NCBI RefSeq assembly: GCF_014196125.1
Contig: NZ_JACIDA010000001.1
Location: 1,488,001 to 1,552,000 of the forward strand
DNA: 64,000 nt
Direction of reading: 5' to 3'
Source of the DNA: Brevundimonas mediterranea
GTDB lineage: Bacteria; Pseudomonadota; Alphaproteobacteria; Caulobacterales; Caulobacteraceae
Shown here: positions 2,846 through 32,428 of the stretch, piece by piece
Position numbering within the stretch: the first letter of the stretch is position 1
Layout: every line of letters begins with the position of its first letter
Notes under the pieces: generated by a model
Told to the model about the DNA's origin: nothing
The model's database searches: none
The model's input: the letters and a program-made list of their open reading frames with translations, nothing else
Translations under genes and position numbers: made by a program

Positions 2846-4250
2846 GCTCCACCTCATTCAGATAGACGCGCGGATCGGTCAGCACCCCGGCCACCGCCGT
2901 CGCCGCCGCCGTCGCCGGACTGGCCAGGATGGTGCGGGCTTCCTTGCCCTGACGGCCCTCGAAATTGCGGTTAGAGGTCGAGACGGCCAACTGTCCCGGC
3001 GCGACGAAATCCCCGTTCATGGCGATACACATGGAACAGCCCGGAATACGCCACTCGGCGCCGGCCGCGATGAAGACCTCGTGCAGGCCTTCCGCCTCGG
3101 CGTCGCGCCGCACCGCTTCCGAGCCCGGCACCACCAGCATCCGCAGACCGGGCTTGACCTTGCGGCCGCGCAGCACCTCGGCGGCGGCGCGCAGGTCGGG
3201 CAGACGGCCGTTGGTGCAGGAGCCGATGAAGACCACGTCCACCGGCTGGCTGGTCGTCGCCTCCCCGGCGGTAAAGCCCATATAGGCGATGGCCTTGCGG
3301 TCGGAGTCCGACTGGGGTTGCGGCACAGGCGTGCCGATCGGGGCGCCGGCGTCCGGCGTGGTGCCCCACGTCGCCATCGGGCGGATGGCGGCGCCGTCGA
3401 TGACGACCTCCTTGTCGAAGATTGCGCCTGGATCGCTGGACAGCTTCAGCCATTCCGCCGTCGCCGCCTCATAGTCGGCGGGGACGTGTTTGCGGCCGCG
3501 CAGCCAGTCGATGGTGGTCTGGTCCGGGGCGATCATGCCTGCACGGGCGCCCGCCTCGATGGACATGTTGCACAGGGTCATCCGCCCTTCCATGTCCAGC
3601 GACCGCACCGCCTCGCCGGCGTATTCGATGACATAGCCGGTGCCGCCGCCGAAGCCGATGGCGGCGATGACGGCCAGCGCGACATCCTTGCCCGACACAC
3701 CGGGCTGCAGCCGCCCGTCCACAGTCACCCGCATGGCCTTGGCCTTGCGCTGCAACAGGCACTGTGTGGCCAGCACATGGCCGACCTCGGACGTGCCGAT
3801 TCCGAAGGCAAGGGCCCCAAAGGCGCCGTGGGTGGCGGTATGGCTATCGCCACAGACTACGGTCATGCCCGGCTGGGTCAGGCCCAGTTCCGGCCCCATC
3901 ACATGGACCACGCCGCGATCATCGGAGCCCCAGCCCGCCAGCGTCACCCCATGAGCGGCGCAGTTCTTTTCCAGCCGATGCACCTGGGCCTCGGCCTGGG
4001 CGGTGACATAGGGTTTCAGCCCGTTCAGGCCCGCAGGCAGGGTCGGGGTCGAATGGTCCAGGGTGGCGTAGGTCCGGTCGGGGCGGCGCACCTTCAGTCC
4101 GCGCGCCTCGATTTCACTAAAGGCCTGAGGGCTGGTGACCTCGTGGACCAGGTGCAGGTCGATATACAGAACACCGGGCGTGTCGGCCGTCTCGGGCCGG
4201 ACTACGTGGGCGTCCCAGACCTTGTCGAACAGGGTTTTGGGATCAGGCAT
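2838..4250 (-). CDS. leuC: 3-isopropylmalate dehydratase large subunit
   Basis: Catalytic large subunit of LeuCD, a [4Fe-4S] aconitase-family hydro-lyase. 470 residues, normal length. Cluster ligands are visible in [14 protein letters not shown] and in [13 protein letters not shown] near the C-terminus; other family blocks are [20 protein letters not shown] and [10 protein letters not shown]. The gene overlaps leuA by 8 bp upstream and leuD by 8 bp downstream, which indicates one tightly packed transcript. Confidence 0.98.
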
Positions 4251-8506: not shown

Positions 8507-10246
8507 TCAGGCGTCCTGAGCAGCAGCGGTTTTGTGAGACGCCGGCACCTGGGCCGGCGGCGGGTTGGGAATGGTCACCGCGCCCTGGGCCGCAGAGGCG
8601 ACCGAGGCGCGGTACTTGGCGAAGACACCTCGCGCCGGACGGACCACGTGGGGCGTAAAGCCCGCCCGGCGCGTCGCCAGATCGACGTCGACGTCGATAC
8701 GGCGGTTGGTGACGTCGATGGTGATGCGGTCACCATCGCGAATGAGAGCGATCGGGCCGCCGACAGCGGCTTCCGGCGAGATGTGGCCGGCGACGAAGCC
8801 GTAGCTTGCGCCCGAGAAGCGGCCGTCGGTCAGCAGGGCGACATTGTCGATCTTGCGGCCCTTCAGGGCGGCGGTGACCTGCAGCATCTCGCGCATGCCC
8901 GGACCGCCCTTGGGCCCTTCGTAGCGGATGATGATGACGTCGCCCTCGCCCACCGAACCGTCCTGGACCGCGTGGAAGGCGTCTTCCTCGCTGTCGAAGA
9001 CGCAGGCCGGACCTTCGAACCTGTCGACCTTATGCCCCGTCAGCTTGATGACCGCGCCTTCCGGGGCGACGTCGCCATAGATGACGGCGAAGCTGCCGCG
9101 CTCCATGACGGGGGCGTCGAAGGTGGTCACGACGACCTGGCCGGGGGTTTCCTCGGCGTCGCCGGCCTCGGCGAACAGGCTGCGGCCGCTGACGGTCGGG
9201 GTGTTCACGATCTTGCCGGCCTCGGCCATGCGTTGCGTGACCAGGCGGGTGCCGCCGGCGGCGAACAGGTGCGAGGCCAGGAACCGACCACCCGGCTTCA
9301 GGTCGCAGATGACCGGCGCCTCGACACAGGCCTGGTGGCAGTCCTCGACGCCGAAATCGACCCCGGCCTCCGCCGCGATGGCCGTCAGGTGCATGACGGC
9401 GTTGGTCGAACCGCCCGAGGCGGAAACGGCGACGGCTGCGTTCTTCAGGCTGGTGCGGGTGATGTATTTGCGCGCCGTGTCTCCGGAGAAGACCCGCTCG
9501 ACGATCAGACGGCCGCAGCGTTCGCCCTCGGCCGCCTTGCCGGGATCGACCGCCGGCACGTCGTTGGCGCCCATGGGCGAGATGCCCATGACCGACAAGG
9601 CCATAGCCATGGTGTTGGCCGTGAACTGACCGCCGCAGGCGCCGGCGCCGGGGCAGACGGCTTGCTCAACCGCCTTCAGCCCGGCGTCGTCCAGCGTGCC
9701 GGCCGAATGGGCGCCGATGGCCTCGAACACCTCCTGGACCGAGACCTCCTTCGTCCCGATCACGCCAGGCATGATGGTGCCGCCGTAATAGACCAGGCCG
9801 GGGATATCCATCCGCGCCAGGGCCATGGCCGCCGCCGGGATGGTCTTGTCGCAGCCGACGATGCAGACCACGCCGTCCAGCTGGTGGCCCTCGATGGCCA
9901 GTTCGATGCTGTCGGCCACGACCTCGCGGCTGATCAGCGAGGCCTTCATCCCCGCCGTGCCCATCGAGATGCCGTCGGTCACGACGATGGTGTTGAAATC
10001 GACCGGATATCCGCCCGCTGCGACGATGCCGGCGCGCACATCCTTGGCCAAGCGGTCCAGGTGCATGTTGCACGGGGTGACCGTCGACCAGGTGTTGACG
10101 ATGCCGATCATCGGCTTGTCGAAGTCGGCGTCCTGCATCCCGGCCGCCCGCAGATACGACCGCGCCGCCGCCCGGTTCGGGCCGTGCGTCACCGCCGCGC
10201 TGCGCGCATTGGGCTTGTTGGGTTCTGAGGTAGAATCTTGCGTCAT
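8507..10246 (-). CDS. ilvD: Dihydroxy-acid dehydratase
   Basis: Fe-S dehydratase of the valine/isoleucine branch. About 579 residues. Cluster-binding cysteines appear in NTWSTVTPCNMHL, VGCDKTIPAAAMA and CPGAGACGGQFTANTM. The C-terminus contains LLTDGRFSGASYGFVAGH. I use ATG 10246; an in-frame start 10 codons upstream (10276) lies in the T-run just after the attenuator stem and would remove the leader spacing. First enzyme gene of the operon, about 30 bp after the leader terminator. Confidence 0.97.
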   Translation of the reverse strand: MTQDSTSEPNKPNARSAAVTHGPNRAAARSYLRAAGMQDADFDKPMIGIVNTWSTVTPCNMHLDRLAKDVRAGIVAAGGYPVDFNTIVVTDGISMGTAGMKASLISREVVADSIELAIEGHQLDGVVCIVGCDKTIPAAAMALARMDIPGLVYYGGTIMPGVIGTKEVSVQEVFEAIGAHSAGTLDDAGLKAVEQAVCPGAGACGGQFTANTMAMALSVMGISPMGANDVPAVDPGKAAEGERCGRLIVERVFSGDTARKYITRTSLKNAAVAVSASGGSTNAVMHLTAIAAEAGVDFGVEDCHQACVEAPVICDLKPGGRFLASHLFAAGGTRLVTQRMAEAGKIVNTPTVSGRSLFAEAGDAEETPGQVVVTTFDAPVMERGSFAVIYGDVAPEGAVIKLTGHKVDRFEGPACVFDSEEDAFHAVQDGSVGEGDVIIIRYEGPKGGPGMREMLQVTAALKGRKIDNVALLTDGRFSGASYGFVAGHISPEAAVGGPIALIRDGDRITIDVTNRRIDVDVDLATRRAGFTPHVVRPARGVFAKYRASVASAAQGAVTIPNPPPAQVPASHKTAAAQDA

Positions 10247-10277
10247 TGGTCCGGTTCTTTTTGAACCGCCAAGCACG

Positions 10278-10307
10278 AAAAACCCCGCTTCCTTTCGGGA
10301 GCGGGGT
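10278..10307 (-). terminator. Transcription attenuator terminator of the ilv-leu operon
   Basis: On the minus strand an 8-bp GC-rich stem (10300-10307 with 10282-10289), extended by two pairs past one mismatch, closes a GAAA tetraloop and is followed by TTTTT. This is a textbook Rho-independent terminator placed between the leader peptide stop (10337) and ilvD (10246). Confidence 0.88.
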
Positions 10308-10360
10308 GGTGCGAGGCGATCCTGAGTGTGTCTAGGTCAGGTCGCGTGCATCCACGCCGC
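10301..10360 (-). promoter_or_regulatory. Alternative antiterminator pairing
   Basis: Minus-strand segment 10360-10352 (GCGGCGTGG), just after the regulatory codons of the leader peptide, can pair with 10309-10301 (CCACCCCGC) at 8 of 9 positions. The second segment contains nearly the whole left arm of the attenuator stem, so the two helices exclude each other. A further small hairpin (10357-10353 with 10348-10344) overlaps the first segment and could act as protector. Pairing was judged by eye, without folding energies. Confidence 0.7.
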
Positions 10361-10489
10361 TTGCGTAAGCAGGCCGAGGAGTACGAGGAGAATGAGGAAT
10401 ACGGGGCCTTCCAGGCCGACCGGCGCGCGAACGGCCGCCACCGCCTTCGCGGTGCGTCCCTTCATCATGTCGCGCGTCATCGTGGCCAC
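10337..10489 (-). CDS. ilvL: ilv-leu operon leader peptide
   Basis: Short open frame of about 50 codons before ilvD. Near its C-terminus it encodes VFLILLVLLGLL (minus-strand codons from 10402 down to 10367), which holds seven Leu, two Val and one Ile, the three end-products of the operon. A GTG at 10489 has the Shine-Dalgarno sequence AGGGAG six bases upstream. ATG 10480 is an alternative start with no well-placed ribosome site. The stop (10337) lies 30 bp before the attenuator. Ribosome stalling on these codons during amino acid shortage would favour the antiterminator. The peptide itself is probably not functional. Confidence 0.85.
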   Translation of the reverse strand: MATMTRDMMKGRTAKAVAAVRAPVGLEGPVFLILLVLLGLLTQAAWMHAT

Positions 10490-10635
10490 GGGTGGCTCCC
10501 TGTTCTGACGCCAAGAAACCATATGGACCGGGACCGCACAACCCCTGTCGCAAAAATTTTGCTCAATGAACCGAAAACCGCCCCAACAGAGGTGTTTCTT
10601 GCCGGACACGCCGCCACTCCATCCGACCGTAACGC

Positions 10636-10661
10636 TTGCTCACGCCATGTTAGGGCTAAGG
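10636..10661 (+). promoter_or_regulatory. Putative housekeeping promoter of gap
   Basis: TTGCTC (10636-10641), a 13-bp spacer, and GCTAAGG (10655-10661). This resembles the Caulobacter housekeeping consensus (TTGAC, 10-14 bp, GCTANAWC). It sits about 80 bp before the gap start in the divergent gap/ilv region (10490-10739). Confidence 0.4.
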
Positions 10662-10739
10662 CGCGGCGGCGGGGTTGAAACCGGCGCGCGAGAGTTCCAT
10701 TGAGACGCCAACAACATAATCGTTCAGAGGAGCCTCCCC

Positions 10740-11747
<1,008 letters not shown>

Positions 11748-13428: not shown

Positions 13429-14514
13429 ATGGCGCGCATCACGCTGCGACAGCTGCTCGACCACGCGGCAGAGAACGACTACGGCCTGCCGGCCTACAAC
13501 ATCAACAATATGGAACAGGGTCTGGCGATCATGGAGGCGGCCCACGAGGTCAACGCCCCCGTCATCATCCAGGCCTCGCGTGGCGCCCGCAACTACGCCA
13601 ACGACGTTGTCCTGGCCAAGCTGATCGACGCCCTGGCCGAACTCTATCCCGACATTCCGGTCTGCATGCACCAGGACCACGGCAACGGCCCGGCCACCTG
13701 CGCCACCGCCATCCAGTACGGCTTCACCTCGGTGATGATGGACGGCTCGCTGGAGGAGGACGCCAAGACCCCCGCCTCCTACGAATACAATGTCGAGGTC
13801 ACCCGTCGCGTCACTGAAATGGCCCACGCCTGCGGCGTCTCGGTCGAGGGGGAACTGGGCGTGCTGGGCTCGCTGGAGACCGGCATGGGCGAGGCCGAGG
13901 ACGGCCACGGCTTCGAGGGCAAGCTGGACCATTCGCAACTGCTGACCGATCCGGACCAGGCCGTCGATTTCGTCGCCGCCACCAAGGTCGACGCCCTGGC
14001 CATCGCCATGGGCACCAGCCACGGCGCCTACAAGTTCACCAAGAAGCCGGACGGCGAAGTCCTGGCCATGAATGTGATCGAGGAAATCCACCGCCGCCTG
14101 CCCAACACCCACCTGGTGATGCACGGCAGCTCGTCGGTGCCGCAGGACCTGCAGGACATCATCAACCAGTACGGCGGCGAAATGCCCCAGACTTGGGGCG
14201 TGCCGGTCGAGGAAATCCAGCGCGGCATTCGCCACGGCGTGCGCAAGGTCAATATCGACACCGACAACCGCATGGCCATCACCGGCGCCATCCGTAAGGC
14301 CCTGATGGAGAACCCGCGGGAGTTCGATCCGCGCGCCTATCTGAAGCCCGCCAAGGCCGCGATGAAAAAGCTCTGCATGGAGCGTTATCAGCAGTTCGGT
14401 TGCGAAGGCCAGGCCTCTCGGATCCGTCCCCTGTCCACCGCCCAGATGGCCACGCGCTACGCCTCGGGCGACCTGGACCCGTCCTTCCGCAACGCCGCCG
14501 TCAAGGCCGCCTGA
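13429..14514 (+). CDS. fba: Class II fructose-bisphosphate aldolase
   Basis: Zinc-dependent aldolase cleaving fructose 1,6-bisphosphate. 361 residues. Zinc/catalytic motifs are visible as [28 protein letters not shown] and VMHGSSSVP; the C-terminal helices ([16 protein letters not shown]) fit the CbbA/Calvin-type subclass. ATG 13429 has GGAG eight bases upstream; upstream in-frame codons overlap the promoter region. Downstream it converges with a lipoprotein gene 4 bp away. Confidence 0.97.
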
Positions 14515-14518
14515 CCGA

Positions 14519-15157
14519 TCAGAAGACCGGGTAGCGGCCGCTCAGTTCGCGCCGCACCCGGAACAGGTCCCATTCGGCGCGATCCAGCGCGTCGCGCGCC
14601 TCACGGGCGTCGCGGCGCGCATCGCGGATCTCGCCGCGGACCTCCTGTATCCGGTCGCGGATGCGCTCGCGCTCCTCGTCCGTCAGCCCTTCGCCGCGCA
14701 GCTCGTTCTGCTTCGCCTCCAACTTGTCCTCGCGGTTGTCGATCCGGGCCTCGGCGCGGTTCAACGCACCCTCCGCCGCCTCGACGGCCGCCTCGACCTC
14801 GTGCAGCCTCAGTCCGTCCCGATAGGCGGGTACGAACGCCGCCTCCTCTTCAGGTCGGCAGACCCCGTAATAGGTATTGCCGGCCCGACCCTCGATCCAG
14901 CCCCGCTCGAAGGTGCAATAGGTCCGCAGGCCGTCTTCGCGCGCCGAACCATAGGCCGACGGATTGGGCGCCACCTGATATTTGGCGCAGGCTTGGGCAT
15001 GATCGTCCAGCCGGCTCATCGGATAGCCAGCCGCCCCGTCGGCGTAACCCTTCTCCCCCCAGGCGCCGACCAGGCATTCGTCCTTGCTCATGGTCGTGCA
15101 ACTGCTGAGCATGCCCGCCACCAAGACCGAGCCGCCGACGATCATCAAACGCTTCAT
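14519..15157 (-). CDS. DUF2799-like lipoprotein with C-terminal coiled coil
   Basis: 212 residues from ATG 15157. A signal peptide ends in a lipobox (MLSSC, Cys near residue 19), so the product should be a lipid-anchored envelope protein. The next 90 residues (CLVGAWGEKGYADGAAG, then a Cys-containing segment RTYCTFERGWIEG) resemble DUF2799. From about residue 110 the protein is a highly charged heptad-like helix (EAAEGALNRAEARIDNREDK and onward), probably a coiled coil. Function unknown. A 10-codon upstream extension (15187) lacks a signal peptide start and is not favoured. Confidence 0.85.
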   Translation of the reverse strand: MKRLMIVGGSVLVAGMLSSCTTMSKDECLVGAWGEKGYADGAAGYPMSRLDDHAQACAKYQVAPNPSAYGSAREDGLRTYCTFERGWIEGRAGNTYYGVCRPEEEAAFVPAYRDGLRLHEVEAAVEAAEGALNRAEARIDNREDKLEAKQNELRGEGLTDEERERIRDRIQEVRGEIRDARRDAREARDALDRAEWDLFRVRRELSGRYPVF

Positions 15158-26387: not shown

Positions 26388-26534
26388 TCTCCCTCCCCCG
26401 CGGGGGAGGGGGGCCGCGCAGCGGCCGGGTGGGGGCGGCCCGGCAAGGCCGCACGGACCGAGCGTGTATCGCCTTGCCCGCCCCACCCGGTCTCTCCTAC
26501 GGCTCGCCCTGCCCTCCCCGGTCGGGGAGGGAGA
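26388..26534. repeat. Palindromic intergenic repeat, full element
   Basis: Starts TCTCCCTCCCCCGCGGGGGAGGG and ends with the inverted GGTCGGGGAGGGAGA, each arm holding two hairpins and a GGGTGGG/CCCACCC segment, around an unrelated middle. It fills the space between g14 and g15 and reaches the g14 stop. Confidence 0.8.
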
Positions 26535-26537
26535 TAT

Positions 26538-27068
26538 TCAATCCGGAAACCGGAACACCGCCGCCAAACGCCTACGCCACCACATCCCCATCCAGCTCTC
26601 CACCACCGCCCGTCCCCAATAGGCGTGGATCATCCTCGGCTCCGGCCCGCCGCAGTCGCTCAGGATGGCGCAGTGTTTCACCGCCGCACCCGCCGACATC
26701 CGGAACAGCAGCACGTCCCCCGCCCGCATCGCCTCGACCGGCACGGGCCTCAGCCACCGCCCCGCCGCCTCCAGCAAGGTCTCGCGCCCGCCGGTCTCGG
26801 CCCAGTCCGGCGAATAGGCCGGCAGGCCCTCCGGCTCATCCCCCACCACCTCGCGCCACACCCCGCGCACCAGCCCCAGACAATCCGCCCCCACGCCCTT
26901 CATGCTGGCCTGATGCCGATACGGCGTCCCCAGCCAGGCCCGCGCAACAACCACCGCCGCCGCACGCGCCTCTCCCTCCCCCTGCGGGGGAGGGGGGGCG
27001 AGCCGGAGGCGAGACCGGGTGGGAAGGGCCAGGCGACCCGCATCCGCTGCCCCTGCCGCCCCCCTCAC
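26538..27068 (-). CDS. GTA peptidase (g14-like, NlpC/P60)
   Basis: 176 residues. NlpC/P60 cell-wall peptidase domain: LGTPYRHQASMKGVGADCLG (catalytic Cys), AGDVLLFRM and AVKHCAILS (catalytic His region). In GTAs this hydrolase is part of the tail tip and opens the recipient wall. GTG 27068 overlaps the g13 stop (GTGA), as expected for coupled tail genes. Between this start and the domain lies a 60-bp palindromic repeat (26971-27030), read in frame as 20 extra codons. The normal protein would begin almost directly at the domain. Confidence 0.9.
   Translation of the reverse strand: MRGAAGAADAGRLALPTRSRLRLAPPPPQGEGEARAAAVVVARAWLGTPYRHQASMKGVGADCLGLVRGVWREVVGDEPEGLPAYSPDWAETGGRETLLEAAGRWLRPVPVEAMRAGDVLLFRMSAGAAVKHCAILSDCGGPEPRMIHAYWGRAVVESWMGMWWRRRLAAVFRFPD
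26971..27030. repeat. Palindromic repeat arm in the 5' end of GTA g14
   Basis: TCTCCCTCCCCCTGCGGGGGAGGG followed by a CGAGCC/GGAGGCGAG hairpin and GGGTGGGAAGGGCC. Exactly 60 bp, a multiple of three, so the g14 frame is kept. Confidence 0.8.
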
Positions 27069-27691
27069 CGCCGGCTCCCGCCGTCGTTCCGCGCGCTCCC
27101 CGCCGGATAGGCCGTCAGGAAGTCATCTCCCGGCACGTCCGCGAACCCCCGGAAATTCACCCCATTCCCGAACGTGCCGACACAGGTCTCCCACTGCTTG
27201 TCACAGCGCCGCCCCGCCGCCGCGACCCCGCAGCGTTCATCCCCCAGCCGCGCGTCGCACATCCGGCCATAGGTCCGCCCGACCACCCGCTCCAGCTTCG
27301 CCAGCGGCCCTTCCAGATCGGCCAGGAACCGCCCCTCCTCGCGCCGCATCCGCGCCAGGGTCCCGGCCCACAGCCGAACCTTCAGCCCCGGCTCCGACCA
27401 GTCCACCCGCCACAGCTCGACCTTCGCTCCGTCGAACAGCCCCGCCGCCACATCCGCCTCGGTGATCGCCGCGTCATCCAGCGCGCCCGCCGCCGAAACA
27501 GCGCCCGCCGCCAGACCCACGGCGGTCCAGCCGCTTCCGGCCCGACAGACCAATCCGTCCACCGCCAGGTCGCGGTCGTGATCGGTGAACCCCGTCACCA
27601 CCCCGTCGGCCCGCTCCAGCCGCCAAACATGACACAGCGTCGCCGCCCCGCGCTCGATGCGGGCGGCCATTTCGTCCGGTATGTCTCTCAT
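27065..27691 (-). CDS. GTA hub protein (g13-like, DUF2163/BR0599)
   Basis: 208 residues from ATG 27691. Matches the DUF2163/BR0599 tail protein family: an N-terminal domain (TLCHVWRLERADGVVTGFTDHD) and a C-terminal Cys-rich Fe-S-like segment (CDARLGDERCG, CDKQWETCVGTFGN). Together with g12, g14 and g15 it builds the GTA baseplate. The stop overlaps the g14 GTG. A 30-codon upstream extension runs into the repeat and is not used. Confidence 0.93.
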   Translation of the reverse strand: MRDIPDEMAARIERGAATLCHVWRLERADGVVTGFTDHDRDLAVDGLVCRAGSGWTAVGLAAGAVSAAGALDDAAITEADVAAGLFDGAKVELWRVDWSEPGLKVRLWAGTLARMRREEGRFLADLEGPLAKLERVVGRTYGRMCDARLGDERCGVAAAGRRCDKQWETCVGTFGNGVNFRGFADVPGDDFLTAYPAGSARNDGGSRR

Positions 27692-27807: not shown

Positions 27808-28419
27808 TCAGACCCGCACCTCGACCAGCGGAACCGCCGCCATCCGACCGGCGTCGAAACTCTCCAGCGTCGTCTCGATCCGGTCCGCATCGAACCGCAC
27901 CGGCGTGTCGAACTGAAAGCCCGCCGTCACCGGCGCGCCCGCCGCCGGCGCGCCGGCCAGCCTCACCGTCCCCGTCGCCGCATCGACGACGAAGCCTGAG
28001 ATCTCCACGCCCCCGACCGACACCCGCACAGATTCCTCGACCGGCTTGGCGATGGGTCGCGCCACATCGCCGTACAGTTTCACCAGCGCGAACGCCGTCC
28101 GCACCCCGTCGCCGACGCCCAGCGCCTGATCCCCGGCCGAAACCGTCCCGCTGGGCGCGCACGACTTGAAGTCGGCGAAGTCCTTGAACCGGAACCCGTA
28201 CAGCCGCCCCCGCCGCGCTTCGAAGAAGGCGATCAGCGCCGCCATATCGTCCAGCGACCTCAGGTTCGCCCCGATCAGATACCGCCGCCGCCCCAGGGCC
28301 CACGGCGTGGACCGTCGCTCGAACCCCGACCCCAGAGTGGTGATCTCCGTCCTCCGCTCGACCCCGCCGGTCGAACCGAACGCCAGCCGCGCGGGCAGGC
28401 GCACCTCATGAAAGGCCAT
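27808..28419 (-). CDS. GTA distal tail protein (g12-like, DUF2460)
   Basis: 203 residues. Typical DUF2460 start (MAFHEVRLPARLAFGSTGG) and body (GFERRSTPWALGRRRYLIG; IAFFEARRGRLYGFRFKDF). It links the tail tube to the baseplate. ATG 28419 has a strong Shine-Dalgarno sequence (AGGAGGAAG). Upstream in the cluster, a plus-strand gene (28591-29304) now separates it from g11. Confidence 0.93.
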   Translation of the reverse strand: MAFHEVRLPARLAFGSTGGVERRTEITTLGSGFERRSTPWALGRRRYLIGANLRSLDDMAALIAFFEARRGRLYGFRFKDFADFKSCAPSGTVSAGDQALGVGDGVRTAFALVKLYGDVARPIAKPVEESVRVSVGGVEISGFVVDAATGTVRLAGAPAAGAPVTAGFQFDTPVRFDADRIETTLESFDAGRMAAVPLVEVRV

Positions 28420-28590
28420 CCGCATCTTCCTCCTGCTCAGAAACGGGCGGCCTATTCGCCCACAGTCTTGTTCGCCCCGGCCGCGCATTGCGGCGGAAAT
28501 CGGGGAACCAGTCGCCAGCTTGGCCTTTACCGATTGCTCGAGCGGCGAAGCTCGGCGATGTTGACCCCGCGCCAAGCTTCGGCGCCAAAC

Positions 28591-29304
28591 ATGGAGATCC
28601 AGGTGCGCGGCGAAATTCTCAGCTACGACGGCACGACCCAATCCGGCCTGATCAGCGGCGACGACGGCGCCCGCTACAACTTCACGGCCGCCGCGCTTCA
28701 GTCGCCGGCCGTTCCCGCCGCCGGCCTCCGCGTCGATTTCGTGCCCGAGGCCGACGCCGCCACCCAGATCCTGATCCTGGCCGGCGCCCCCTCGACCGTC
28801 GGCGTCGCCGGCGGCCTGTCCGCCCCGACCGCGACCGGCGCGGGCTTCGACTTCACCAGCGCCATGTTTTCCTTCAACGGTCGGCTCCGCCGCTCGCATT
28901 TCTGGATCGGCTTCCTGATCATCTTCGGCGCCAGCCTCGTGCTGGGCTGGATTCCTTTCCTGGGCGGACTGATCTCCATCGCCCTGATCTGGCCGAACCT
29001 GGCCATCTCCGTGAAACGCCTGCATGACATGGGCAAGAGCGGCTGGCTGATCGCCATCCCCTTCGGCGTCAACATCATCCTGACGTTCATCGCCTTTGGC
29101 ATCATGATCAGCAATGTCATCGCCAACGGCGGAACGGCCGACTATTACGAAGACAATCCTGAGGCCGCCCTGGCCGTTATGGGCCCGGCCATTGGCCTGA
29201 TCGGTCTCGCCGGCCTGGTCAGCCTGGGCTTCCTACTCTGGATCGGCCTGGTCGACAGCCAGAAGGGCGAGAACCGCTTCGGCCCGAACCCCAAGGGCGA
29301 ATAA
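28591..29304 (+). CDS. Cold-shock-like OB domain fused to DUF805 membrane domain
   Basis: 237 residues on the strand opposite to the surrounding GTA genes. Residues about 1-55 look like a small OB/cold-shock-type fold (GEILSYDGTTQSGLISGDDG), then a linker, then DUF805 (FSFNGRLRRSHFWIGFLI; LAISVKRLHDMGKSGW; ending VDSQKGENRFGPNPKG) with about four membrane helices. ATG 28591 is chosen as the start of the conserved part; frame-open codons upstream overlap g12. It is followed by a strong terminator, so it is an independent unit placed in the GTA cluster. Function unknown. Confidence 0.88.
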   Translation: MEIQVRGEILSYDGTTQSGLISGDDGARYNFTAAALQSPAVPAAGLRVDFVPEADAATQILILAGAPSTVGVAGGLSAPTATGAGFDFTSAMFSFNGRLRRSHFWIGFLIIFGASLVLGWIPFLGGLISIALIWPNLAISVKRLHDMGKSGWLIAIPFGVNIILTFIAFGIMISNVIANGGTADYYEDNPEAALAVMGPAIGLIGLAGLVSLGFLLWIGLVDSQKGENRFGPNPKGE

Positions 29305-30079: not shown

Positions 30080-30411
30080 CGCGCCGCCGCCTCGAAGGCC
30101 GCCGCCACCGCCCGCGCCGCCTCGCGCGGTTCGACCCCGGCCACATCCAAGGTCTCCCCGCCCCCGCGCAGCACCGCCGCCAGCACCACCATCAGGTCCC
30201 GCGCCGACAAAGCCTTCATCCGCTCCGCCGCCGCCGCCAGCCCTTCGACCGCCAACCCGGTCTCGATCTCCGCCAACGCGCCCAGCGTCAGACACACCCG
30301 ACGACGCACCCCGCCCAGCACCACCCCCGCCTCGCCGCGCGCACCAATCTCCCCCCCTTGGGGGGAGAGGGCCGCCCCGCGGCCCGAGGGGGGCCAGTCC
30401 CCGCCGCTCAT
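30076..30411 (-). CDS. GTA g10-like tail protein with in-frame repeat at its N-terminus
   Basis: 111 residues from ATG 30411, which overlaps the g9 remnant stop (ATGA). The conserved GTA g10 core begins after residue 28 (GVVLGGVRRRVCLTLGALAE; RMKALSARDLMVVLAAVLRGG). Residues about 4-22 (DWPPSGRGAALSPQGGEI) are the translation of a palindromic repeat at 30348-30402. An internal GTG just after the repeat could serve as a second start. The frame is also open upstream into the portal remnant. Confidence 0.87.
   Translation of the reverse strand: MSGGDWPPSGRGAALSPQGGEIGARGEAGVVLGGVRRRVCLTLGALAEIETGLAVEGLAAAAERMKALSARDLMVVLAAVLRGGGETLDVAGVEPREAARAVAAAFEAAAR
30348..30402. repeat. Palindromic repeat in the 5' end of GTA g10
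   Basis: TCTCCCCCCCTTGGGGGGAGAG hairpin (split here as two arms of about 9 bp) followed by GGCCGC/GCGGCC and GAGGGGGGCC. A variant of the repeat family, in frame in g10. Confidence 0.7.
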
Positions 30412-30545
30412 GTCGCCGAAAACCCGATCTCTCCGGCGCTCGCCAGGCTCAGCGCAAAGGTCGCCTCCCCCTCGTGCTCGCCGGCGTACTCTAGCGCCGC
30501 CACCAGGAACGGCCCCTCCAGCACGCCGAAGTCCGGCACCACCAT
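30408..30545 (-). pseudogene. 3' remnant of GTA major tail protein gene (g9)
   Basis: The last 45 codons of a TP901-1-type major tail protein: VVPDFGVLEGPFLVAALEYA, then GEHEGEATFALSLASAGEIG. Complete g9 proteins have about 130-140 residues ending in this block. Upstream sequence switches to a portal gene start at about 30548-30556. The stop overlaps the g10 start exactly as in an intact GTA cluster. Confidence 0.82.
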
Positions 30546-30547
30546 TG

Positions 30548-30675
30548 GCCGTCCACCGCGCCCGCCCCACACCCGACAGCAGCACCGCCGCCCGACTGGC
30601 CTTCTCTTCGGGCGCCCCCCGATTGGACGCACGCCCGCGCCCCGCCTGGCCGAACGGCCACCGGATCGAAACCAT
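30548..30675 (-). pseudogene. 5' remnant of GTA portal gene (g3)
   Basis: ATG 30675 opens a frame whose first 40-odd codons read like a GTA portal N-terminus: RWPFGQ, then APEEKASRAAVLLSGVGRARW, where family members have 'APE(E/T)KASR...GRPVW-(T/S)PRDYA'. After this it runs into the g9 remnant in a different frame and stays open into g10. About 350 portal codons plus protease, capsid, g6, g7, g8 and most of g9 are missing. Confidence 0.75.
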
Positions 30676-30718
30676 CGCACTCTCCCTGAAAAGCGGCGTC
30701 ATGCCGACACACGCTGAC

Positions 30719-30866
30719 TCTCCCTCCCTCTCGGGGGAGGGGGGGCGAGCCGGAGGCGAGACCGGGTGGGAAGGGCCGCGCACCGCATCCCCCACGCCAT
30801 CCCATCGTCCCCTGCCGCTCCCGCCCGGCGGCTTCGCCGCCCCCCTCCCCCGCAGGGGGAGGGAGA
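30719..30866. repeat. Palindromic repeat, full element, between terminase and portal remnant
   Basis: Two inverted arms, TCTCCCTCCCTCTCGGGGGAGGG ... GGGTGGG on the left and CCCCTCCCCCGCAGGGGGAG ending in GGAGA on the right, around a 45-bp middle. It fills the gap between the terminase stop and the portal start. Confidence 0.8.
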
Positions 30867-30876
30867 AACCAAGGCC

Positions 30877-32046
30877 TCACAACCGCCGTATCCTCGGCCC
30901 CTCCGCCGCCTTCCCCAGCATCAGCTGCGACACCGCCCACACCAGGGCGTCAGCGCGGTCCGGGCTGGGCCCGCCCTCGCACCCCAGGGCCAGCATCTCC
31001 TCCTCCAGGGCCGGGAAGTCCCCGCAATGCACCACCCGCCCCTGCTCATACAGCAGGGCCACCGGCTCGGCCCGCGCGGCCTTGGACCGCGAGGCGTGCA
31101 GCAGTTCGACCGGGGCCGGACAGTCGGATTGTCTCAGGACGTTGCGCACCATCTCCCCGCCCTGGTTGGCCTCGGCCGCCACCTCCTGGGCGTCGAAATC
31201 CCGCGCCGCCCGACACACCGCCGCCGCCCAGCCGCCGGGCGACAGTCCCCGCACCGTCCGGTCGGCCAGGATGAAGGCCCGCCGGTCCTTGCGCCCCGCC
31301 ACCACGATGCCGCAGGCGTCGCCGTGCGCGCTCGCCGGCGGATCGACCGCCACGATCACCCGGTCCAGCTCGGCCGGTCGGCTTCCGCGCGCCCGTTTCA
31401 GATCCTCGACCCCGAACAGGGCGCCCTCGCCTTCGACCACCTGTCCCTCCAACTCCTGCGCCGCCAGCCGGGTCCCGCCGTACACATCGGTCAGATGGGC
31501 CAGAAACCCCGGCGACAGATTCTCGGCGTTCAGGGCCGTGGCCGCCCGATCCACCCGTGTCCCCGCCTCGGCCATCAGCCGCCGCAGCGCCGGGATCGGC
31601 CGGGGCGTCGTCGTCACCGCCAGCTTGGGGGCCGCCCCCAGACGCAGGCCGAATCTCAGGTTCGACAGCACCGCCTCGGGCTTGCGCCAGGCGCAGAATT
31701 CGTCGGCCCAGGCGGCGTGGAATTGCGGCCCGCGCAGACTGTCCGGATCCTCGGCCGAAAAGGCGTAGGCGGCCGATCCGTTCTTCCACAGCAACCGCCG
31801 CCGCCCCGCCTCCCAGCGCGGCCGGTCGCCCGGTTCGGCCAGGGCCTTGATCCCCGATACGCCCTCGACCATCACCTCGCGCACATCATGCAGGGCGGGT
31901 CCGACCAACGCCAGATTGACCTTGGACTTGCGCGCCAGGGTGTCGATCCAGACCGACCCGGCGAAGGTCTTCCCCGATCCCCGCCCGCCCAGCAGCAGCC
32001 AGGTGGCCCAGCCGGGTTCAACCGGTTCGATCTGGTGACGGTTCAC
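30877..32046 (-). CDS. GTA terminase large subunit (g2-like)
   Basis: DNA-packaging motor. The ATPase domain has Walker A LLLGGRGSGKTFAG, and a Walker B-type region around FHAAWADEFCAWRKPE; the nuclease half includes VIVAVDPPASAHGDACG and SPDRADALVWAVSQLML. The start is uncertain. GTG 32046 gives 389 residues and a 29-bp overlap with the upstream gene. ATG 32193 gives 438, but its first 30 codons only repeat the upstream gene in another frame. With either start, the usual N-terminal segment (RDWRFWARPEQ-like) is shortened or replaced, so an N-terminal deletion or frameshift near 32100 is possible. Confidence 0.87.
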   Translation of the reverse strand: MNRHQIEPVEPGWATWLLLGGRGSGKTFAGSVWIDTLARKSKVNLALVGPALHDVREVMVEGVSGIKALAEPGDRPRWEAGRRRLLWKNGSAAYAFSAEDPDSLRGPQFHAAWADEFCAWRKPEAVLSNLRFGLRLGAAPKLAVTTTPRPIPALRRLMAEAGTRVDRAATALNAENLSPGFLAHLTDVYGGTRLAAQELEGQVVEGEGALFGVEDLKRARGSRPAELDRVIVAVDPPASAHGDACGIVVAGRKDRRAFILADRTVRGLSPGGWAAAVCRAARDFDAQEVAAEANQGGEMVRNVLRQSDCPAPVELLHASRSKAARAEPVALLYEQGRVVHCGDFPALEEEMLALGCEGGPSPDRADALVWAVSQLMLGKAAEGPRIRRL

Positions 32047-32428
32047 CAGGGCCTTGCGGGCCTCCCGTCTCAGGATGGCCCCCTCCAGCTTGTCGATCTC
32101 GCTTGCTCTCGATGATCGCTTCGATCCGATCGCAGTTAGCGGCCAACTCGCGTCGCAGTCGCTCGTCCTCTTCGGGGTCGTAGATCCGTCCACCCATCTC
32201 GTCCTCTTCGCTGTCTTCGGCCTCGACGCGCGGGCGGATCGCGTCCACCAGCTTGGCGGCGCGCGCGATCACCCCGGCGCGACGCGCCAGCTTTTCCGCC
32301 TCATCCAGGGTCTCGGGTTCCTCGCTGCAGATCATGTCGGTCGCACGCTCGACCGCCGTCTTCAGCCGTTCGAACAGGGACGCCAGCCAGCTGCCGCCCG
32401 TTCCGCTCTCTTCGCCTTTTCCCGCCAT
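32018..32428 (-). CDS. Small protein preceding the GTA terminase (g1-like position)
   Basis: 136 residues from ATG 32428. Highly charged and helical: LFERLKTAVERATDMIC, DEAEKLARRAGVIARAAKLV, then an acidic stretch (VEAEDSEEDEMGGRIYDPEEDERL). The position before the large terminase fits GTA g1 (small terminase), but I recognise only the context. Its last 30 codons overlap the reading frame of the terminase region, and its C-terminus (RQAGGGHPETGGPQGPGE) looks like an out-of-frame read, consistent with a frameshift around 32100. Confidence 0.7.
   Translation of the reverse strand: MAGKGEESGTGGSWLASLFERLKTAVERATDMICSEEPETLDEAEKLARRAGVIARAAKLVDAIRPRVEAEDSEEDEMGGRIYDPEEDERLRRELAANCDRIEAIIESKRDRQAGGGHPETGGPQGPGEPSPDRTG

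Follow-up and report, generated by a model that had tools for sequence, protein, structure and literature searches.

The closest described systems to the locus studied here are gene transfer agents (GTAs) and headless tail-like particles. F-type tailocins are headless, carry tape measure, distal tail, hub and tip genes and need a tail tube, and GTA uptake in Rhodobacter capsulatus needs ComEC. RcGTA-like clusters occur in 78% of Caulobacterales OTUs (PMC6821227), and GTA clusters have been pseudogenised or lost in several alphaproteobacterial lineages, which were proposed as cheaters (PMC10883770). In the RcGTA tail, stopper (g7), terminator (g8) and distal tail protein each form a single ring and the tube protein (g9) forms five (PMC7296036). 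In Caulobacter crescentus, gafY and gafZ are the GTA activators (PMC9632790, PMC11150451), and the lethality of gafYZ overexpression is GTA-dependent (PMC9632790).

The window, that is, the whole stretch of 64,000 nucleotides that was analyzed (G000:C1:1488001-1552000), belongs to a genome (G000) of 3.41 Mb on seven contigs, which is 99.74% complete. Its minus strand holds a cluster in the order g1, g2, joint, g10, g10.1, g11, g12, g13, g14 and g15, with a DUF805 gene on the opposite strand between g11 and g12 (Table 1). Judged by homology and gene order, this Brevundimonas locus is a GTA cluster of the RcGTA/CcGTA type, as g12 and g15 are homologous to RcGTA components and PF13547 (GTA_TIM) is present, a family that was matched among 14 control genomes in Caulobacter vibrioides only. 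The sequence-only reading had described the tail genes g10-g15 as open, and g10, g10.1, g11, g12, g13, g14 and g15 are each open in one frame over at least 98% of the HMM. RcGTA-type synteny from the terminase through the tail-tip genes is complete in the relative G032 and broken in the window, where an otherwise orthologous GTA locus carries an inactivating lesion of the kind that defines a pseudogenised GTA cluster.

Table 1. Features of the GTA cluster, in window coordinates
Feature	Position	Strand	Basis or remark
g1, cluster's first gene, 155 aa	32018..32485	-	ORF with relatives in the genus; without Pfam match
g2, terminase large subunit, open	30877..32193	-	PF03237 + PF17289; 96% aa identity with G032
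GC-rich inverted-repeat element, ~150 bp, between g2 and portal remnant	30712..30867	.	dispersed in the genome
portal (g3) remnant, first 44 codons + 1 base	30543..30675	-	96% nt identity with the intact G032 portal start
deletion junction	30542..30545	-	between 30543 and 30542; 2-bp microhomology TG at 30544-30543
g9 (tail tube) remnant, last 44 codons + stop	30408..30542	-	PF06199 match
g10, tail assembly chaperone family, open, 111 aa	30076..30411	-	PF11836
g10.1, tail assembly chaperone, open, 66 aa	29879..30079	-	PF09550; GTG start inferred from G032
g11, tape measure protein, open, 176 aa	29359..29889	-	PF09718 below curated cut-off; relatives; role by order
DUF805 gene, non-GTA, embedded antisense between g11 and g12	28591..29304	+	PF05656
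g12, distal tail protein, open	27808..28440	-	PF09343; RcGTA Rcc01695, E 3.8e-70
g13, hub protein, open, 208 aa	27065..27691	-	PF09931 + PF09356
g14, NlpC/P60 peptidase, open, start codon uncertain	26538..27068	-	PF00877
g15, megatron protein, open, 1242 aa	22641..26369	-	PF13547; RcGTA chain 6tba_8A, E 2.7e-238; named megatron protein 8gtc_M

The junction was resolved against G032, a metagenome-assembled genome that is intact across the deleted region and is the closest relative over the greater part of the cluster, its main blocks being 93-96% identical in nucleotides. Relative to it, the window lacks 5,067 bp in one clean deletion (reverse complement of L039, 4910-9976), comprising the rest of the portal gene, g3.5, the protease gene g4, the capsid gene g5, g6, g7, g8 and 92 of the 136 codons of g9, two thirds of that gene. 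The portal ATG lies at 30675 on the minus strand, and the portal-derived stretch 30675-30543 is part of a match to G032 that extends over 149 bp at 96% identity. A head-module deletion with 40-odd portal and 45 g9 codons left had been proposed from the letters of the window; the deletion and the extent of the remnants (44 portal codons plus one base, 44 g9 codons plus stop) bear this out, and the joint, which had been put at 30548-30556, lies at 30543/30542, with an ambiguity of 2 bp (TG, shared by both ends). The two parts are not in frame with each other: the portal frame crosses the g9 remnant in a different frame, meets no stop and ends only with g10, giving 199 aa. Since the Pfam portal match in G032 begins at portal residue 59, the 44-codon remnant is invisible to the Pfam model.

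A 36-nt exact pattern across the joint had no match in the GTDB r220 contigs, among which the window's genome is perhaps absent, and the portal-g10 open frame used as a protein query returned 34 proteins, nearly all of the g10 family and each with at most 59% query coverage, so that no second strain with the joint came to light in either search. Repeat-mediated deletion was rejected as the direct cause, as the 150-bp repeats lie near the breakpoints and not at them, and only 2 bp are shared. The motif GCTGGTGG, which we take to be the Chi sequence of E. coli, stands at the g9 side of the breakpoint in G032; as a rule for such breakpoints it was discarded, because both relatives used for G019, whose deletion has the same g9 breakpoint codon, are without it. 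Across 25 junction comparisons in 14 genomes, judged by eye, only short overlaps and no common motif were seen. A separate small deletion in G019 (L077, g9 codon 92 to g10 codon 31) has its left end at the g9 breakpoint of the window, which follows codon 92, and the portal of G078 is broken at almost the same place as the window's, where 44 codons are left.

GC-rich inverted repeats of about 150 bp are found at three gene boundaries of the cluster, 30712-30867, 26967-27107 and 26388-26534, with fold z-scores on the cluster strand of -2.3, -1.1 and -5.2, respectively, and with more copies in the genome. In C. crescentus, three GC-rich repeats of 150 bp are the terminator terGTA, which is read through with GafYZ (PMC11150451).

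The lost genes were not found elsewhere in the 99.74% complete genome. Neither a Pfam portal match nor a Pfam capsid match was obtained, and the single match to the tail-tube family PF06199 was the g9 remnant itself. No copy of the 5,067-bp G032 segment is present on any of the seven contigs; the segment gave 44 matches (best E 3e-30), all of them short. Nearly all fall in two repetitive parts of the query, at about 1277-1435 and 3667-3804, and three others span 36-40 bases. For comparison, portal-family matches were found in 120 and capsid-family matches in 117 of 131 genomes of the genus, prophage copies included, and in 103 and 100 of the 110 well-assembled ones, where some are again prophage copies.

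The content of the lost segment can be read from G032, in which the portal matches Rcc01684 of RcGTA, the capsid Rcc01687, g8 the tail terminator Rcc01690 (E 2e-5, and also Pfam tail completion) and g9 the tail tube Rcc01691 (E 5e-44); Pfam identifies g4 as a prohead protease and g6 as a connector. Neither g7 nor g3.5 had a Pfam match, g6 and g7 had no match among solved structures at E 0.01, and g7 is named by order only. As g8 and most of g9 are deleted, the tube that any tail-like particle needs was lost along with the head. The earlier proposal that the locus cannot make a DNA-filled particle thus agrees with the deletion of the head module and with the finding of no other portal-, capsid- or tail-tube-family gene in the genome. 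Going by gene content, no DNA-filled particle is to be expected from this cluster, and its leftover genes most likely make no particle at all.

Selection on the remaining genes was compared with that in two relatives. In the tail genes g10-g15, the changes private to the window's genome were 56 nonsynonymous and 104 synonymous (omega 0.203), against 69/131 in G032 (0.199) and 91/166 in G074 (0.21), with a Fisher p of 1.0 in both comparisons. The dN/dS of g10-g15 against relatives, which had been suggested as a check, thus gives purifying selection. For g1 and g2 together the counts were 11/19 in the window's genome (omega 0.209), 10/25 in G032 (0.144; p 0.60) and 47/29 in G074 (0.60; p 0.03 against the window's genome), where G074 has lesions of its own, in the terminase end and in g7. 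On these few changes, the terminase of the window's genome shows no sign of relaxation. If the tail had been neutral since the deletion, the upper confidence limit on omega of 0.281 would leave room for this in about the final 10% of the branch, corresponding to a synonymous distance near 0.006, and the comparison cannot separate a very recent deletion from a tail that is still selected. The closest relative also differs by gene, being G074 for g2 and G032 for g12; with such conflicting similarities among the three genomes, the branch assignments are approximate.

Altogether the deletion looks recent, and a recent deletion is sufficient to explain the open tail frames. We consider it very probable that a recent, simple deletion has produced a young GTA-null allele. 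An old, long-dead remnant of a decaying prophage or GTA, in favor of which stand the heavily eroded clusters of the relatives G089, G112 and G123, is by comparison very improbable: the remaining genes are open, omega is about 0.2 for tail and terminase alike, the close relative G032 keeps the whole module, and the 36-nt junction gave no exact match in the GTDB r220 contigs, where the window's genome itself may be missing.

The sequence-only reading had also offered that the tail part may have been kept for another use. Such a module might form a headless tail-like (F-type pyocin-like) or tail-tip particle, and the open frames of g10-g15 under purifying selection, together with an activator pair that looks intact, would suit this. 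A tail-only function would, however, free the terminase to drift, and no such drift is seen in the window's genome, so a kept tail is unsupported on this side; the tube g9 and terminator g8 are destroyed, with no other tube-family gene found in the genome.

A further case in favor of a kept tail would be G078, a single-contig genome whose terminase DNA is 77% identical to that of the window. Its deletion, separate from the one studied here, begins near portal codon 44 and extends to g10.1 codon 12; the portal start and g10.1 are now in one open frame. The tail omega of G078 is not raised compared with that of G077 (0.25-0.26 vs. 0.24-0.27 with outgroup G054; 0.23-0.24 vs. 0.24-0.32 with G001), the terminase gene is frame-broken, and the g2 ratio is raised with one of two outgroups (43 nonsynonymous and 44 synonymous changes vs. 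18 and 39, p 0.04 with G054; p 1.0 with G001). The tail of G078 is nevertheless damaged too, as the start of g10.1 is lost and g13, of 208 codons, is interrupted by an in-frame stop near codon 170. We therefore did not accept G078 as a clean parallel of a kept tail, given a g2 that lies in two frames and the stop in g13 (L062, oriented 10086-11293 and 14223-15035), both of which may be sequencing errors.

A survey of the genus weighs further on this point. GTA loci were fetched and scored for 105 of 110 well-assembled genomes, the window's included (G051, G064, G104, G110 and G128 were omitted), with 17 genes per locus scored by HMMs made from sequences that matched proteins of G032 and of the window, and a gene taken as open under a 75% coverage rule. 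This rule passes g13 and g2 of G078 and g2 of G074, whose terminase end is lost, so lesions are under-counted, also in genomes scored as intact. Flanking genes on both sides of the cluster were held by 59 of the 105 loci. Among these, 39 were open for g3-g15 (g3.5 excluded), four had frame splits (G038, G043, G094) or a marginal value (G073), which were not counted as deletions as they may be sequencing errors or threshold effects, and 16 had deletions that remove or cut genes, a fraction that is biased upward because fetched stretches of at most 20 kb favor shortened clusters. With G030, which is anchored on one side, 17 damaged clusters were obtained among the 105 genomes. Head genes (g3-g8) are damaged in 13 of the 17 and tail-tip genes (g11-g15) equally in 13; by the same rule, three clusters are hit in the head only (G000, G068, G078), three in the tip only (G026, G030, G065) and one in neither (G019). 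There is no sign of preferential tail retention among the 17.

With the tail tube and terminator destroyed, no relaxation seen in the terminase and tail-tip genes lost in the genus as often as head genes, the proposal of a tail kept for another use was not supported, and a headless particle of this kind is in our estimation highly unlikely. Nor do we give more than a slight chance to the narrower idea that the tip complex (tape-measure, distal-tail, hub, peptidase and megatron proteins) is kept because it is useful by itself, for example as a surface- or wall-active device still switched by GafYZ; if it were true, G078 would offer a parallel despite its g13 stop, since there too about 44 portal codons are left, the terminase is broken and the tail is unrelaxed. 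Misassembly, in which the head genes exist and were dropped at the junction, is on indirect grounds hardly credible: the joint is known from the assembly alone, but its breakpoints are without a repeat and share 2 bp, it is placed some 270 kb from the end of a contig of 1.79 Mb, the seven contigs of a 99.74% complete genome contain no copy of the deleted segment beyond short, mostly repeat matches, and other deletions stand in single-contig assemblies, e.g., G078, G127, G130, G066, G068 and G091.

The breakpoint pairs that were compared differ between genomes, while single ends sometimes coincide; judged from these breakpoints rather than from a tree, the deletions of the genus are apparently separate events. 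Right ends fall at g15 codon 1067-1072 in G127, G066, G030 and G119, with different left ends, and at codon 1073 or 1094 in G011, depending on the reference (loci L146, L137, L136, L145 and L041); a hot spot or a retained element upstream of dnaJ may lie behind this. The DUF805 gene has a tblastn match in 79 of the 105 fetched loci; in G066 and G127, deletions that begin at different left ends both finish at its stop codon, within 3 bp of one another, as though the gene had been shielded. In G121 (L091/L092) and G125 (L098/L099), about 14-20 kb lie between portal and capsid, which suggests large insertions within these clusters.

In 19 genomes the fetched locus has a portal but no g2. The g2 of G034 is on another contig and all 18 others have distant terminase matches elsewhere, so terminase loss was rejected as a further class of lesion, and g1 and g2, as well as g3.5, were excluded from the lesion count. 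The window's genome itself encodes another terminase large subunit, well away from the cluster (L160:8306-10405, minus strand; G000:C2:384305-386404), of 699 aa, with an N-terminus about 200 residues longer, the same two terminase domains and 56% identity to g2 over residues 187-438; a match of this kind is present in G032 and G074 too. A distant terminase of this sort may be the working GTA terminase in the species of the 18 genomes without a close g2.

Beginning 1.6 kb beyond the window is a gene pair that overlaps at ATGA. Its first protein (118 aa) has a DnaA-type helix-turn-helix (PF08299, E 6e-7, 29.8 bits, just below the 31.5 cut-off), and the second (237 aa) is a DUF6456 protein. From domain and order, rather than from comparison with the Caulobacter proteins, we infer that the pair is gafY-gafZ, with DUF6456 presumed to correspond to GafZ; a candidate GafYZ activator is thus present, and its genes look intact. 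A ComEC-family gene is also present in the genome, as in 10 of the 14 control genomes.

Considering the above results, we propose a plausible course of events for the young GTA-null allele. A single recent deletion of 5,067 bp would have taken the stretch between the portal start and the middle of g9 out of a GTA cluster that is otherwise open, and been sealed with 2 bp of shared sequence, perhaps by end joining or slippage. The cell would be left without capsid, DNA-filled particle or tail tube, and its gafYZ, terminase and tail-tip genes would now be passengers, whose intact look most likely reflects the short time since the loss. As the lethality of gafYZ in C. crescentus is GTA-dependent, the head deletion could spare the cell the cost of GTA lysis, and the cell may still receive GTA DNA. 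The allele is perhaps a non-producing 'cheater' of the kind proposed by Kogay and Zhaxybayeva, and drift would look alike. Theory expects such non-producing lineages, and the locus offers a young-looking, base-resolved candidate with activators that look intact and, in G032, a close relative in which the module is retained. The deletions of the genus, in head and tail alike, form a natural series for measuring how often GTA production is lost and how long the lineages that lost it persist.

In the open-licence literature that was searched, we found no account of this deletion or of a lesion survey in Brevundimonas. The solved RcGTA particle of R. capsulatus has chains that correspond to g12 and g15 of the window's genome and to four proteins of G032 (portal, capsid, g8 and g9), whereas the window's genome is without portal, capsid, tail terminator and tube, and its activator is two genes instead of the single GafA. 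With CcGTA of C. crescentus, itself of the RcGTA type, it shares GTA structural genes and adjacent genes of the gafY-gafZ type (PMC9632790, PMC11150451), but lacks most of the portal, the protease, the capsid, g6-g8 and most of g9, and no particle is expected. The remnant resembles an F-type tailocin in being headless with open tape measure, distal tail, hub and tip genes (g11-g15), and differs from it in a destroyed tail tube, of which only the 44 C-terminal codons of g9 are left. With the pseudogenised alphaproteobacterial GTA clusters it shares recurrent loss and the proposal of cheater lineages (PMC10883770); in contrast to those, the present lesion is base-resolved, young-looking and set among 17 damaged clusters of one genus. 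The deletion is apparently an instance of the published recurrent GTA loss, and one of several separate losses in the genus.
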